A stretch of 64,000 nt of DNA, taken from NCBI GenBank assembly GCA_018830485.1, contig JAHJRQ010000015.1, positions 372,001 to 436,000 of the forward strand, written 5' to 3'. Made by a program: the position numbers and the translations under genes. The notes under the pieces were generated by a model, which had not been told where the DNA came from, ran no database searches, and saw nothing but the letters and a program-made list of their open reading frames with translations. Below, piece by piece: positions 16,215 through 28,552 of this stretch. Source of the stretch: Pseudomonadota bacterium. GTDB lineage: Bacteria > Desulfobacterota > Desulfobulbia > Desulfobulbales > Desulfurivibrionaceae. The first letter of the stretch is position 1; every line of letters begins with the position of its first letter.

Positions 16215-16291
16215 GCGCCCGTAGCTCAGCCGGATAGAGCACCGGCCTTCTAAGCCGTAGGTCACAGGTTCGAATCCTGTCGGGCGCACCA
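16215..16291 (+). tRNA. tRNA-Arg (anticodon TCT), integration target
   Basis: The acceptor stem GCGCCCG pairs with CGGGCGC, the anticodon loop CTTCTAA gives TCT, the T-loop is TTCGAAT and CCA is encoded. The 3' half (16243-16291) is the left attachment repeat of the mobile element, so this part was restored by incoming DNA. Confidence 0.97.
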
Positions 16292-16427: not shown

Positions 16428-16826
16428 CTATTTTTTACTGTCCCGCCTGGAGCCCATTTTCAATTGCGGCTCTTGATCATCATCCTTACTATTCAAATTA
16501 TGCTTTAGATCGAACCTGGCCGTAGCCCTATCCCACCACGGCCCCTTTAGCCCCATAAAACCACCAGGGAAAAACTTATAAAGGAAAAACTGATGCAAGT
16601 ATGGAAGTGCGCAAAAAACACATAAAAAAATCATAAATATAAATATCGATTGCAACACAAAAACAGATAGGTGCTTTGAAAGAACAGGATATAACTTATA
16701 TCGATAGAATACAATCAATGATGGGCATACAACAAAAAACAAAACGCCAAGAAAAAACTTGGCCCCATTGTGTGGCGGAATGCTATTGCATATTTCCTTC
16801 AGTTTTTTTTCTTTTTCTTCATTCAT
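16428..16826 (-). CDS. Small two-helix membrane protein
   Basis: A 132-residue protein with two strong hydrophobic segments (FFLGVLFFVVCPSLIVFYRY and VFVLQSIFIFMIFLCVFCALPYL) and a charged C-terminal tail ending in SRRDSKK. I place the start at the ATG at 16826, eight bases from GAGGAT; an upstream in-frame ATG at 16847 overlaps the repressor gene. It lies directly downstream of the XRE repressor gene on the same strand and is probably cotranscribed. It is AT-rich. Function unknown; a superinfection-type role is only a guess. Confidence 0.6.
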   Translation of the reverse strand: MNEEKEKKLKEICNSIPPHNGAKFFLGVLFFVVCPSLIVFYRYKLYPVLSKHLSVFVLQSIFIFMIFLCVFCALPYLHQFFLYKFFPGGFMGLKGPWWDRATARFDLKHNLNSKDDDQEPQLKMGSRRDSKK

Positions 16827-16843
16827 ATAATCATCCTCGCATC

Positions 16844-17272
16844 TCAATCTGAAACCATAATTATTTGACGATGAATTTTTTCTTCAACATTCCCCCTTTG
16901 AATCCCAGCATTCTCCTTTTCTATAAAATCTTCATAAAATAATTCGACTAACTCTCTCCTTTTTTCCTTAGTCCATGGCTTAAGATACTTTTTTTTAAAG
17001 CTATCTATTGCGTCCGTAACCTCTAACAACAAATCATAGTCAATAACTGTTTTAGGTAGACCTTGCCCCACAAGTATCCAATTCGTGTTGAAATCAAGTT
17101 TGGATAACCCCGCAAGCACCTTACTGCCCGGAATCTTTAGGTCATACTCATATTCGACCCAAGCACTCTTTGAACAGCCGACCTCTTCCGCCATTTTTTG
17201 TTGGGTGAACCCAAGGGACTCCCTGGCGGTTTTTAACCTTCCACCCAATTTTAGCGCACTATCTGTTGACAC
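16844..17272 (-). CDS. XRE-family repressor of the mobile element
   Basis: A phage-repressor-like DNA-binding protein of about 142 residues. The helix-turn-helix RLKTARESLGFTQQKMAEEVGCSKSAWVEYE is at the N-terminus; DFNTNWILVGQG is the usual segment that follows this fold in CI/Cro-like proteins. The GTG at 17272 is the likely start, eight bases from AGGAA; a TTG at 17278 is too near that site. The gene is transcribed away from the excisionase-like and replication genes, a lambda-like control layout. Confidence 0.82.
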   Translation of the reverse strand: MSTDSALKLGGRLKTARESLGFTQQKMAEEVGCSKSAWVEYEYDLKIPGSKVLAGLSKLDFNTNWILVGQGLPKTVIDYDLLLEVTDAIDSFKKKYLKPWTKEKRRELVELFYEDFIEKENAGIQRGNVEEKIHRQIIMVSD

Positions 17273-22483: not shown

Positions 22484-22855
22484 ATGCAAAAAGCCAAGCA
22501 TGACCATCCTGTAAGAATCCGGCTTCAAGAACTTGGCCCGGAAATTGAACGCCGGGCCAAAGCCGAAACCAAGGGGAACAGATCAAGATTGATCCGCCGC
22601 GCCCTCAAGATGTACTTGAAGGGCGACGGTCAGCGGGTAGAGGACACGGCGGGCCTCTTGGTGGAACTTCGGGGCCTGCGGGCGGAGTTTCACAGGATCG
22701 GCAGCAACTTCAACCAGATCGCGCGGGCACTTAACATGGAAGAACCTGTTCCCCAGGAAAATATTTTAGCGGCGCACATGGAGCTACGACGGGGATTTAA
22801 CGAGGTTAAAATCTTATTTGAGGCTGTTGCTGATGATATCGCAAAAACCATATGA
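22484..22855 (+). CDS. MobC-like relaxosome accessory protein
   Basis: A 123-residue protein. The N-terminal part PVRIRLQELGPEIERRAKAETKGNRSRLIRRAL looks like a ribbon-helix-helix DNA-binding domain. The second half has ELRGLRAEFHRIGSNFNQIARALN, the hallmark of MobC/MbeC-type mobilisation proteins, which bind oriT and assist the relaxase. Its stop lies inside the relaxase gene (23-base overlap). Confidence 0.85.
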   Translation: MQKAKHDHPVRIRLQELGPEIERRAKAETKGNRSRLIRRALKMYLKGDGQRVEDTAGLLVELRGLRAEFHRIGSNFNQIARALNMEEPVPQENILAAHMELRRGFNEVKILFEAVADDIAKTI

Positions 22856-24368
22856 GGAGCGAGCGCTTGAACAACCGCATGTCAAAAAGGGCGGCAAGAG
22901 CCAAAACAGCGCAGCCGCCGCGTTGCGCCTCCGGCTTTCCTCGCCGGGCTACGTCAAGGCCGCGCATCGAGGCGGAGCCGAGGCCGTTATCAAGGTTGCT
23001 TCTTTCGCGCGGGGCTTTCAGACCCGGCTCATAATGGATTACATAGGCCGCACCGACAAGGAACCTGACCCGGACACCCCGGGTCAGGAGATCGAGCTTG
23101 AAAATCACAAGGGGGATATTTTCAAGGGCAAGGACGAGATACAACGAGTTTATGAAGAGTGGGCCAAGGATTTTGGGAAGGCCAAGCCCGGCACGAAGCG
23201 CCCGCCGCGTGACGCAACCCATATCGTCTTTTCAGCCGGAGCGGACAACACGCCGAAAAATCGCAAGCTGACCTTGCTTGCCGCTCAAGAAGTGGCGCGG
23301 GAGCATTTTGCAAACAAAGGATACGACTACTTGATGGGGCTGCATCAGGACGCGGACAAGCCCCACGTCCATTTTGTGGTGCGAAATCACCACCGGGAGA
23401 GGGGCGGCAAAAAATTCAAGCTCAACCCGGCGGACTTGTTCGTGATCCGTGACCACTTTGCGCGGGCGCTTCGTGAGGTGGGCCTTGATCATGTGGCCAC
23501 TCTGCATCGGGACCGCCCAAAGGATGCGGCGACGATCCGTGCCGAGATTGACACCGGCATCAAGCAGGTGCGACAAAAAGAAAACTGGCTTAGAGTCCAG
23601 ATCGAGAAAAAAGCGCCGGACGTAAACGCCCTTAAGCATCGAGAGGCTATACTTGACACCGTGACGCGGCTTAATGACCAGATCAAGAAGATAACAAAAT
23701 CAAAAAGCCCGGAACGTGCGGAGCTTATGGGTGAAACCAGGAAGATCAAGCGGGCGCTTTTGAAGTCCGAGCCGGACTTGCAGACACAGATTGAAAGCAC
23801 CGTGCGCGGCCTGGGCAAAAACGCCCTGCGCTATCGGGAACTGATAAACGAATTGACCAACCCGACGCCGAAACAACCGGCCATCCAGCTTGCCCCGCAA
23901 GAACTGGAAAGCCGGAAAAAGTATCTTGCGGGCCTAGAACAGCGCACGGCCCGCGATATTGCCCTTGCGCGGGAAGCGATCAAGAAAAGCGAGGCCAGCA
24001 AGCCCGACAAGGAGCTTGCCCTTGAAGCATTGCGGCAGCATGGCCGCTTGATGCAAGGTGTTTCCATCGACAAGGAAACCGACAAACTCCTTGACCGGTT
24101 GGCCAAAGAAGTGGAAAATTTCGGGGAGCGATACAAGAAATTACGAAACCCGGTGTCCGGGGAGTTGCCTAGGAGCACCCTGGAGCGGCTACAGAATCGC
24201 CGAATTTTGGAAAAACAGGCCCAGAGCATCGAGAAAGGGATTGCTCAAGCGCAGAAATCAGTGCGGCTGGCGCCGGTCAGCCCCAAGATCAGGGAAGCGG
24301 CTCAAAAGATACTGAAACAGCACCAGCAGACCATGAGTCGCAGCCTGGGCAAGACACAGGAAAAATAA
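22833..24368 (+). CDS. MOBP-type relaxase (MobA/VirD2 family)
   Basis: Nicks oriT and stays bound to the transferred strand. A 511-residue protein: motif I tyrosine in RLIMDYIGRT near residue 73, and motif III HQDADKPHVHFVVRNHH near 175, with the paired histidines that bind metal. The rest is a long helical, lysine- and glutamate-rich C-terminal region with many EL/KK heptads, probably coiled coil. I choose the ATG at 22833, which overlaps mobC, rather than 22818. There is no primase or helicase domain. Confidence 0.88.
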   Translation: MISQKPYEERALEQPHVKKGGKSQNSAAAALRLRLSSPGYVKAAHRGGAEAVIKVASFARGFQTRLIMDYIGRTDKEPDPDTPGQEIELENHKGDIFKGKDEIQRVYEEWAKDFGKAKPGTKRPPRDATHIVFSAGADNTPKNRKLTLLAAQEVAREHFANKGYDYLMGLHQDADKPHVHFVVRNHHRERGGKKFKLNPADLFVIRDHFARALREVGLDHVATLHRDRPKDAATIRAEIDTGIKQVRQKENWLRVQIEKKAPDVNALKHREAILDTVTRLNDQIKKITKSKSPERAELMGETRKIKRALLKSEPDLQTQIESTVRGLGKNALRYRELINELTNPTPKQPAIQLAPQELESRKKYLAGLEQRTARDIALAREAIKKSEASKPDKELALEALRQHGRLMQGVSIDKETDKLLDRLAKEVENFGERYKKLRNPVSGELPRSTLERLQNRRILEKQAQSIEKGIAQAQKSVRLAPVSPKIREAAQKILKQHQQTMSRSLGKTQEK

Positions 24369-25571: not shown

Positions 25572-26198
25572 CTAACTAGCCAACAATTGCGGGGCACTTC
25601 TGTCAAGGCCCTCTCTGATTCTTGTGAAATGAATTGAGAGTTTTACAAGAAAAACATAAAATCCCAAGTTTCCCAAAGAAAAAATTCTTTTCTCAGAGGC
25701 GGGTTTTTTATAAAGTTCGGAAGCTGAAATATGATTTATTTTGTCCAAAAATATTATAGCATCATATGTCAATTGTTCATTTTTAGGTAAGTAGAATATA
25801 TGACTTACTTGCTGTTTTTTGATGTTAGCGACATGGGTATTAACTCGCTCTTGATCAATTCCGCTTTTTTCAAGCGCATTTTTATATTTTTCGAGATTGA
25901 AAACTGGAGTGTAGATAGCGCTTAGGGGAGCAAATCTTTCATTTGCTTGATCCAAGTCGCACGAATTAGACAATAAGACAACCGGGGCTGGCCGTATATC
26001 GGCAGATGGGAGGTTGATACAAAAAACATCTTTGACCCCATCCCCCTGGAAATAATTTACATCAGACAAACTCCCTTGACTGTAAAATCGTTTATCTATG
26101 TTCTGGGGAAATTGCTCCAAATCTCTAAAAAGTGTTTTCTGCGAACCAGAAGATAAATATTGAGGTAGATATTGCTTTATTTCCTCAAATGTACTCAT
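25572..26198 (-). CDS. Cargo operon protein 3, unknown
   Basis: A 208-residue AT-rich gene, third in a minus-strand trio. The central segment PAPVVLLSNSCDLDQANERF looks like a buried strand followed by a conserved Asn/Cys/Asp cluster that could be functional. Later segments are mixed helix and strand (IFYLPKNEQLTYDAIIFLDKINH). There is no signal peptide or membrane helix. I do not recognise the family. The start is one base after the stop of protein 2, so translation is coupled. It is probably cargo of the mobile element. Confidence 0.7.
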   Translation of the reverse strand: MSTFEEIKQYLPQYLSSGSQKTLFRDLEQFPQNIDKRFYSQGSLSDVNYFQGDGVKDVFCINLPSADIRPAPVVLLSNSCDLDQANERFAPLSAIYTPVFNLEKYKNALEKSGIDQERVNTHVANIKKQQVSHIFYLPKNEQLTYDAIIFLDKINHISASELYKKPASEKRIFSLGNLGFYVFLVKLSIHFTRIREGLDRSAPQLLAS

Positions 26199-26199
26199 T

Positions 26200-26502
26200 C
26201 TAAATCAGGTCCCAAAAGTGCTCATTAACTATTTTTGTGAAAACAGGATCGGGATCTTCAGCGTTTTGCAGCAAATTAGATACAAATTTTTGTAATATTT
26301 CTTTTTGTCTTTGTTCCGTCTGGGCTCCCACAATCATATCATAATAAGGATTAGGGTTATATCCGCTTGAGGACACCCTCCAACACGTAGGCAGGTTGTT
26401 CATTTTGACGCTAGGAATGTCAATAGGTTGTACATATGGCAAAGATAACACAGCAGCGGACGCTACTCCACCAACCAGATGTTTTATTTGTGTTGTAAGC
26501 AT
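26200..26502 (-). CDS. Cargo operon protein 2, unknown small protein
   Basis: A 100-residue protein with a weakly hydrophobic start (LVGGVASAAVLSLPYVQP) that could be a signal or membrane anchor, then a soluble part with SSSGYNPNPYYDMIVGAQTEQRQ. It lies 11 bases after the TIGR04255-type gene and one base before protein 3. Function unknown; the tight spacing says the three products work together. Confidence 0.65.
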   Translation of the reverse strand: MLTTQIKHLVGGVASAAVLSLPYVQPIDIPSVKMNNLPTCWRVSSSGYNPNPYYDMIVGAQTEQRQKEILQKFVSNLLQNAEDPDPVFTKIVNEHFWDLI

Positions 26503-26513
26503 ATTCTTTTCCC

Positions 26514-27221
26514 CTATTCGTAATCTGGATTTAGATCACTTATAAAGTCATCCTTTAATAAACTAAAAAATATTTTTTTTTCTTCTATGTGAGCATTTTC
26601 TGCTTCACTAATAATTTCTTGAGGATTCACTATATAGGTATCTATATCAATTACAGAACCATTGAATATATCGCCCTGAATATTTATCTCAGCATTATTT
26701 GCCATACGGAGTGTATTGGTAAATACGCCTGATGATATGTCGGCAGTTATACTCTTACTGCAACTTTCTAAGTTTCTATCTCCTATAGATAGATTTATTG
26801 TTGACCTACTAAACACATCCATATCTTTAAATATATTTATATATCTTAATCCAGCTCTCGTTATCTCTGACGCAATCTCTGTTTTCTGGAATTTTTCTAC
26901 AGATCGTTTTATTTCCGCAAAGAAAAAATCCCACCCCTTATATTCCTGGGCATGCACAACCGAGAAAACCTTAGGACCAACCTGAATAAGGAAATTTTCC
27001 CCCGATAATTTATAATGTGGACTAAACATTAGATTGGGATCATTTGTGCGTATTTGTTCCGGTAGCTGTTGTATCGGTAATGGCTCAACTTTTGGATAAT
27101 CTTCTTTGAATTGGCTATAAACTATTCCAAAAATTGCATCTGCCGGGATTTGCGATTCAAACCGCAATTCAAATATTGATTCAACAAGGGGACAAGGTGT
27201 GATTTTCTTAGGAAGGCGCAT
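26514..27221 (-). CDS. TIGR04255-family protein, cargo operon protein 1
   Basis: A 235-residue protein. RLPKKITPCPLVESIFELRFES at the start, then PLPIQQLPEQIRTNDPNLMFSPHYKL and FLIQVGPKVFSVVHAQEYKGWDFFFAEI, are the conserved blocks of the TIGR04255 family, sporadic proteins of unknown function found on accessory DNA. I start at the ATG at 27221, directly before these blocks; the frame is open to 27296. Base composition is far more AT-rich than the flanking integrase and relaxase genes. It leads the three-gene operon. Confidence 0.78.
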   Translation of the reverse strand: MRLPKKITPCPLVESIFELRFESQIPADAIFGIVYSQFKEDYPKVEPLPIQQLPEQIRTNDPNLMFSPHYKLSGENFLIQVGPKVFSVVHAQEYKGWDFFFAEIKRSVEKFQKTEIASEITRAGLRYINIFKDMDVFSRSTINLSIGDRNLESCSKSITADISSGVFTNTLRMANNAEINIQGDIFNGSVIDIDTYIVNPQEIISEAENAHIEEKKIFFSLLKDDFISDLNPDYE

Positions 27222-27408
27222 AATTATATGCTCGGCATTTAAGGTGAAAAAAATAAATGTTTTTAGCTTGTAACATGAACGATCATTCAGTGTCAATCTA
27301 CACTAAGAGTCAACATCTCCCAGGTGGCCCCTTACTAATCCCCCTTAAAACTTCCACAAAAAGCCCTGCAAAGCCAGGACCCCTCATGGTTCTCCAAACA
27401 GAAGGGCA

Positions 27409-28398
27409 TCACCCAAGCTTTGCCGCCAAGTTTTCAGGCCGCAGGTGGGTGTAACGCAACAACATTCTCAAATCTTTATGGCCGGTAACGGCGGCAACAT
27501 CCATAAGCTCCAACCCCTTTTCAAAAAGCCGACTTGTAGCCTCGTGACGCAAATCATGAAACCGCAAATCGTCAGATTTTGCCCGCCGGCAAACCCGGTT
27601 GAAAGCCTGGGTGATACTGTCTTTTTCAACCCCCCATACATTCCCATCGATTCTGCGGGGAATTCCTTTCAAAATCGTTACTGCTTTTGAGGAAAGGGGG
27701 ACCGTCCTAGGACTTTTCCTTGTTTCCCCAAAGGGGATTACCCATGTCTGCCTGTTGAGGTCAACATGCTCCCAACGCATAGCAGCAATCTCCCCGCGTC
27801 TAGCTGCTGTCTCCACAGCGATTGTAATGATATTTCCAATCGCTTTACCTTTAGAGGCAATCGCCGCCTCAACAAGACGCTGCTCCTCACCAACTTGGAG
27901 GCGACGATCCCGGCCAGGTGGAAGTTTGGGCATGCGAATTTGAGCGGTCGGCAAGCCATGGGGAAGGTGGATGCCACAATCGATCTGGGCGAATTTTAGA
28001 ACCCGGCTCAACAGGCCCAGCTCGTGCTTTACTGACTGCGGGGATACCTGCTGCTGGCGCTGATCGCGGTAGACCGCGATATGGTTACTGCGTAGAGCAG
28101 CCACGGAAAGATGGCCAAGTTCTTTCTTGAGAAGGGCCAGGCGAAAACATTCTCTTTTTCCGCCATCGGACAGACGCGGAAAGACTTCTTTTTCGTACCG
28201 ATCAAGAATCTCGGCAACGCTGGTTTGTTCAGCAACACTACTGGAGATAAAAATGCCTCGCTCCATCTCGGACTCGGTTTTACGCGCCCACGTCTCGGCA
28301 TTTTTTTTGTCGGAGAAGGTTTTAGTCAGGGAAGAGAAACCCTTTTTACGGATTTTGACGCGCCACTGATAAGGACCTCGTTTTTCGATAAATGCCAT
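27409..28398 (-). CDS. int: Tyrosine recombinase integrase
   Basis: A 329-residue site-specific recombinase. It has an N-terminal arm-binding region (MAFIEKRGPYQWRVKIRKKG), a SAM-like core-binding domain, and a catalytic domain with ETAARRGEIAAMRW (first Arg), FHDLRHEATSRLFEKG (His-x-x-Arg box) and VTGHKDLRMLLRYTHL (His and the Tyr nucleophile). It lies 105 bases from attR and reads toward the element's interior, and should catalyse integration into tRNA-Arg. The 187 bases between it and the cargo operon hold no gene. Confidence 0.95.
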   Translation of the reverse strand: MAFIEKRGPYQWRVKIRKKGFSSLTKTFSDKKNAETWARKTESEMERGIFISSSVAEQTSVAEILDRYEKEVFPRLSDGGKRECFRLALLKKELGHLSVAALRSNHIAVYRDQRQQQVSPQSVKHELGLLSRVLKFAQIDCGIHLPHGLPTAQIRMPKLPPGRDRRLQVGEEQRLVEAAIASKGKAIGNIITIAVETAARRGEIAAMRWEHVDLNRQTWVIPFGETRKSPRTVPLSSKAVTILKGIPRRIDGNVWGVEKDSITQAFNRVCRRAKSDDLRFHDLRHEATSRLFEKGLELMDVAAVTGHKDLRMLLRYTHLRPENLAAKLG

Positions 28399-28503: not shown

Positions 28504-28552
28504 CGGCCTTCTAAGCCGTAGGTCAGAGGTTCGAATCCTCTCGGGCGCACCA
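28504..28552 (+). repeat. attR, displaced 3' end of tRNA-Arg
   Basis: Matches 16243-16291 at 47 of 49 positions. The two differences (C to G at 28526, G to C at 28540) pair with each other in the T-stem. This fragment should be the original host 3' end left after integration. Confidence 0.93.

Follow-up and report, generated by a model that had tools for sequence, protein, structure and literature searches.

We identified a compact operon of three genes that is likely to be a tripartite toxin-antitoxin (TA) module, carried as cargo by an integrative mobilizable element. It was found in a window of 64,000 nucleotides (positions 372,001 to 436,000 of contig JAHJRQ010000015.1, GenBank assembly GCA_018830485.1, from a member of the Desulfurivibrionaceae), and all coordinates below are those of the window. 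The tripartite TA reading is the best available because the third protein has a predicted MazF-type fold, the middle protein resembles an antitoxin and the first protein belongs to a family, TIGR04255, whose genes lie beside TA genes. We propose that the third protein (P0003) is the toxin, as its predicted fold suggests, that the middle protein (P0002) is the putative antitoxin, and that the first (P0001) may act as a chaperone-like sensor or stabilizer of the antitoxin, a role that rests on the logic of analogous systems and not on fold.

The trio occupies the minus strand, with the TIGR04255-family gene first (P0001, 235 amino acids, 26514-27221), followed by the small middle gene (P0002, 100 amino acids, 26200-26502) and a gene whose product contains an SNSCD segment (P0003, 208 amino acids, 25572-26198). 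All three frames are open and are separated by gaps of 11 nt and 1 nt; the order of antitoxin before toxin and the 1-nt spacing fit a TA operon. An alternative TTG start for the first gene is possible upstream at 27296, and the family alignment begins at the ATG at 27221. At 36.1% G+C, the trio is far more AT-rich than the remainder of the element (50.2%) or the window (56.8%). Scans for promoters and terminators stayed near chance level.

On one side, the trio is flanked by a relaxase/mobilization gene on the plus strand (22818-24368, its family named by inspection only) and on the other by the tyrosine integrase of the element (27409-28398, minus strand), identified from its open reading frame and sequence. 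The integrase lies immediately upstream of the trio on the same strand, with a gap of 187 nt, an order that recurs in other loci. The element measures 12.3 kb and is integrated in a tRNA-Arg gene (16215-16291), where a 49-bp direct repeat marks its two ends, with the left copy inside the tRNA gene (16243-16291) and the right copy (28504-28552) repeating its 3' part (47 of 49 positions identical). These data support the trio as the cargo operon of an integrative mobilizable element, and the first-pass annotation of three packed, AT-rich minus-strand genes between a mobilization module and an integrase is confirmed. The repeats differ at two positions, which replace a C-G pair in the T arm of the tRNA-Arg by a G-C pair, so that the stem is kept in both versions. 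Next to the attachment site and a helix-turn-helix regulator, we also observed an AT-rich frame (16428-16847) that encodes a possible membrane protein of 139 amino acids.

Relatives of the trio were gathered from plasmids, phages, genomes and viral contigs. TIGR04255 lies just upstream of the third gene, on the same strand, in 96 of 106 loci, a set with some redundancy (the window itself and near-identical prophages) that comprises 68 distinct third proteins at the cut used. The gap between the two partners usually holds the middle gene, and several of the ten loci without an upstream TIGR04255 gene are contig edges. A search of viral contigs with the P0003 sequence alone returned no relatives; a six-sequence alignment recovered 46 loci. 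From locus L045, the genome that contains the window was placed in the phylum of Pelovirga (Thermodesulfobacteriota). The hosts include Bacteroidota, Pseudomonadota, Thermodesulfobacteriota, Verrucomicrobiota, Riflebacteria, Omnitrophota, Hydrogenedentes and Nitrospinota, and the carriers include prophages and phages, plasmid-like elements, one small circular record and chromosomes, where the trio sits between ordinary genes. Such recurrence of the three genes with their order kept, across phages, plasmid-like elements and the genomes of many phyla, is far beyond chance, and the concern that the three genes might not occur together in other genomes is clearly dispelled. The first gene is not recognizably TIGR04255 in five loci that keep the middle and third genes (L035, L036, L043, L056 and L069), and that of L035/L036 has no similarity to TIGR04255 by hhalign, so TIGR04255 is replaceable. 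These substitute first genes encode proteins of 209-295 amino acids and are possibly alternative sensors.

The third protein matches PHROG 4575 (E = 1.7e-44), and its AF2 model is of high confidence (pLDDT 92.3). In a Foldseek search of the PDB with this model, the best 40 rows were all MazF (best E = 5e-5), and PemK-like proteins ranked on top in a viral library. VIA-align superposed the model on MazF with a Z score of 11.5, at 2.8-3.0 Å over 111-113 of 113-115 residues, with CcdB next (Z = 9.5). Residues 47-195 are thus predicted to adopt the MazF/Kid/CcdB fold. Sequence comparisons gave fainter signals. P0003 had no match to Pfam PF02452 (PemK) at E up to 1, and hhalign of the SNSCD family against 17 genuine PemK proteins was weak (E = 0.0058, probability 6%), though IRPAPVVLLSN and IIFLDKINHIS were aligned to those parts of MazF where they would be expected. 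PDB sequence searches with two alignments (A4 and A5) yielded chance matches only. The gene had been described at first pass as unrecognized; this stands with regard to Pfam PemK and is superseded by the PHROG match and the predicted MazF-type fold.

The SNSCD family has residues of its own. Across 69 sequences, Q51, N78, C80, D81, P138, S188, R193 and R200 do not vary, and G52, D53, R88, D152 and H190 are nearly invariant; the SNSCD segment, which had looked conserved in the single sequence, therefore contains three invariant positions (N78, C80 and D81). The canonical catalytic Arg and Thr of MazF are not conserved in the same 69 sequences (columns 71, V/A/I, and 100, I/F/V, in a register taken from the weak profile alignment), and RNase activity of P0003 is therefore uncertain. 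P0003 thus resembles the MazF superfamily by its predicted fold, with a distinct set of invariant residues. MazEF, Kid-Kis and CcdAB of the PemK-MazF superfamily share with the trio this fold and an antitoxin-like gene directly upstream of the toxin; P0003 differs from their toxins in that it lacks a Pfam PemK match, has an additional N-terminal region, does not conserve the canonical catalytic Arg and Thr positions and has its own set of invariant residues, and the operon differs in having a third gene.

The middle protein combines a moderately hydrophobic N-terminal part with a conserved C-terminal motif (..NEHFWDLI). Its N-terminal stretch had been taken at first pass for a possible signal or anchor, which was not borne out: the best Kyte-Doolittle 17-mer has a median of only 1.59 among 80 distinct middle proteins, no transmembrane helix is clear, and we rejected a membrane protein on this basis. 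A hydrophobic stretch does lie in the N-terminal half of 78 of the 80, which would suit a small membrane-active peptide that acts as the effector, with the MazF-fold protein and TIGR04255 as sensor or regulator. We regard this arrangement as very improbable, given the moderate hydrophobicity, the known toxins that fill the slot of the MazF-fold protein in sister operons and the position of the strongest conservation in the C-terminal tail. In middle proteins of the SNSCD class, conservation peaks in the last 30 residues, where mean pairwise identity is 0.29 compared with 0.12-0.19 in other parts, and the terminal motifs are of the type NFWDLI; all middle proteins found in the MazF class end in (T/S)F.(E/D)DW..P.ME.YD.L.

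A natural swap among related TIGR04255 operons, which are not the window's copy, separates the two parts of the middle protein. Between L112 and L114, the TIGR04255 proteins are 85% identical, and the middle proteins retain 57% identity across their first 82 aligned residues; beyond these the middle proteins are unrelated, as are the third genes (a 223-amino-acid SNSCD-like protein and a MazF). Between L114 and L115, both with MazF, the C-terminal part of the middle protein is 86% identical. The N-terminal part of the middle protein therefore goes together with TIGR04255, and the C-terminal part with the toxin, a split to be expected for the antitoxin of a system like the toxin-antitoxin-chaperone (TAC) modules. 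MazE-like and VapB-like tails outside TIGR04255 loci were absent from the collected loci by regular expression, and one such tail had no match among plasmids by tblastn, so the identity of the middle proteins with these tails as antitoxins rests on position and co-inheritance.

The first-pass assignment of the leading gene to TIGR04255 was upheld by the NCBIfam profile (E = 3.3e-37, 128.7 bits, curated cut-off 30). The AF2 model of P0001 has a pLDDT of 96.6. Guanidino kinase, TBP-like, AdoMetDC and spermine synthase folds were considered for TIGR04255 and rejected, as the best Z score of about 8 is near the chance level stated by the tool; we therefore propose no enzymatic role, and no SecB-like fold appeared among the matches listed. 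In the three phyla surveyed, the family was present in 32 of 395, 30 of 398 and 24 of 395 genomes.

TIGR04255 heads compact operons that differ in their third gene. Examples of third genes exceed the Pfam cut-offs for PemK_toxin (1.8e-13) and PIN (5.6e-7), or fall below them for HicA (3.3e-4) and HEPN (0.0041), and one class matches DUF7689 (1.4e-40). Phage SNW-1 carries TIGR04255 with a HEPN gene (E = 3.7e-8). Among 77 TIGR04255 loci, we assigned third genes to MazF (8), HEPN (6), PIN (4), HicA (2), SNSCD and its relatives (11), DUF7689 (4), a family that we call NHANI/NPAHS (21) and others (6), leaving 15 unassigned or too short; class seeds were drawn from the same loci, so that these counts describe the set and are not independent, and the test lies in the Pfam assignments and a background count. 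The third gene is MazF, HEPN, PIN or HicA in 20 of the 77 loci, whereas among 438 background genes, taken from the flanks of SNSCD loci and from the window, one neighbours a gene of these four classes. On the TIGR04255 tree, the toxin class switches at least 16 times, where nine is the minimum for ten classes. TIGR04255 is thus consistently linked to TA operons of many kinds as their shared component. The first-pass annotation had allowed for a consistent link to some other known function; the link found is to TA genes, which it did not foresee.

Several third-gene families are candidates in their own right. The NHANI/NPAHS proteins (L121-L125, L164, L173, L174, L176, L178, L196, L206 and L207) bear NPNHAN.. 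or NPAHS.. motifs, are frequent, gave no Pfam match for the single member searched and in part accompany a middle protein with a conserved EEC..GWDGY.. motif; they are candidate toxins. DUF7689, with a YNCIGWAA motif, is the third gene in L113, L116, L117 and L128 and is a candidate toxin domain. A further family of 168-172 amino acids starting MFLAR.I..AKW occurs with a middle protein of 228-255 amino acids in the TIGR04255 operons L198, L200, L205 and L211.

One family ahead of many unrelated toxin folds is also the pattern of PanA (DUF4065), the promiscuous antitoxin of the Panacea systems (PMC8832971), which likewise occur on mobile elements and phages. TIGR04255 might by analogy be such an antitoxin, with the middle protein as an adaptor that is specific to the toxin and recruits it to TIGR04255, and with no chaperone involved. 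We consider this improbable: P0001 has no Pfam match and belongs to a different family, and Panacea loci consist, as described, of a toxin and an antitoxin gene, joined by a third gene in a subset only (PMC8832971), whereas a separate, toxin-matched middle protein is regularly present here and its C-terminal part tracks the toxin, as an antitoxin should. A tripartite module with an antitoxin in the middle remains our preferred reading.

The closest parallels are the TAC systems (Mycobacterium tuberculosis HigBA1-SecBTA and CmdTAC), which also comprise three-gene operons with a variable toxin family and one shared third component, and an antitoxin divided between a toxin-specific part and a part that serves the third component, as in the related operons L112, L114 and L115. 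In TAC systems, the antitoxin carries a short ‘chaperone addiction’ (ChAD) part that is held by a SecB-like chaperone, and titration of the chaperone could free the toxin (PMC5105189); CmdTAC can defend against phage, in that displacement of the chaperone by newly made phage capsid protein leads to degradation of the antitoxin and lets the toxin act (PMC11618068). The trio departs from TAC in its shared component, TIGR04255, for which the listed matches gave no SecB-like fold, in its order (shared component, antitoxin, toxin) and in the position of the partner-linked part of the antitoxin, which is N-terminal here and C-terminal (ChAD) in TAC.

By the same logic, P0003, with its N-terminal extension and MazF-type fold, would probably stop growth through RNA or another core target. 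The C-terminal tail of P0002 (..NEHFWDLI) would dock onto P0003, and P0001 would hold the hydrophobic, poorly conserved N-terminal part, keeping the antitoxin stable as a shared chaperone-like partner. An invader that titrated or altered TIGR04255 would then cause loss of the antitoxin and free the toxin, so that the cell no longer supports the invader, as in CmdTAC.

Genomic context provides several links to defence. Five Pseudomonas prophages (L004, L087, L088, L092 and L102) carry the trio 43-218 nt after a CI-like repressor, on the same strand, a position from which expression in the lysogen is expected. The trio abuts the portal gene in the P2-like phage Dobby; in P2-like phages, the region between gpA and the portal gene gpQ is a hotspot of anti-phage systems (Rousset et al., PMC9122126). 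Pseudomonas prophages hold the trio at the same sites as P2 cos hotspot cargo and repressor-linked exclusion genes. In a Riflebacteria genome (L037, 6860-8633), it interrupts a Hma defence operon, its genes standing between HmaA and HmaB in the same orientation (PADLOC scores of 1841 and 1497 bits), and type I restriction-modification or AbiEii genes are near it in L014, L045, L048 and L018; these five defence neighbourhoods were chosen by eye, without a background count.

Six elements including the window's (L001, L016, L065, L070 and L076 are listed) show the integrase followed by the trio on the same strand, and therefore an addiction role also fits. The trio could be a plain addiction or stabilization cassette by which mobile elements secure their maintenance in the host, with no anti-phage role, as its place right behind the integrases of several unrelated elements and its presence in prophages and a small circular record would suggest. 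We nevertheless think this unlikely, because the trio is also chromosomal among ordinary genes, inside an Hma operon and beside restriction-modification genes, and its prophage copies sit at repressor and P2 cos exclusion sites. From genomic position, we somewhat favour a role in anti-phage defence. The first-pass proposal of an undescribed defence system, to be sought near known defence genes, is consistent with these circumstantial links, and the trio is better read as a TA module for which defence is one likely use. It does appear to be undescribed: none of the three proteins matched PADLOC-DB (2023) models at E up to 1, their relatives giving stray weak matches only, and the open-licence literature searched contained no mention of TIGR04255 or DUF7689, with prior description elsewhere possible.

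As a kind of system, the trio belongs to the tripartite TA modules, an already known kind, and is unusually broad within it. The recurrence of TIGR04255 ahead of many toxins suggests a shared trigger or chaperone for the whole class. The arguments are finely balanced for the wider proposal that TIGR04255 marks a large, unnamed class of combinatorial tripartite TA systems for phage defence, in which one shared protein, as chaperone and invader sensor, is linked through a two-part antitoxin to interchangeable toxins, comprising MazF, PIN, HEPN, HicA, the SNSCD effector with its diverged MazF fold and several families so far not recognized as toxins. This gives a curated, functionless family a testable role, that of the component common to many tripartite TA operons, with the prediction that the DUF7689, NHANI/NPAHS and SNSCD third-gene families are toxins and that the middle genes encode their antitoxins. 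If TIGR04255 senses phage proteins, as CmdC senses capsid protein, it would provide a second way to couple the sensing of invaders to arbitrary toxins.
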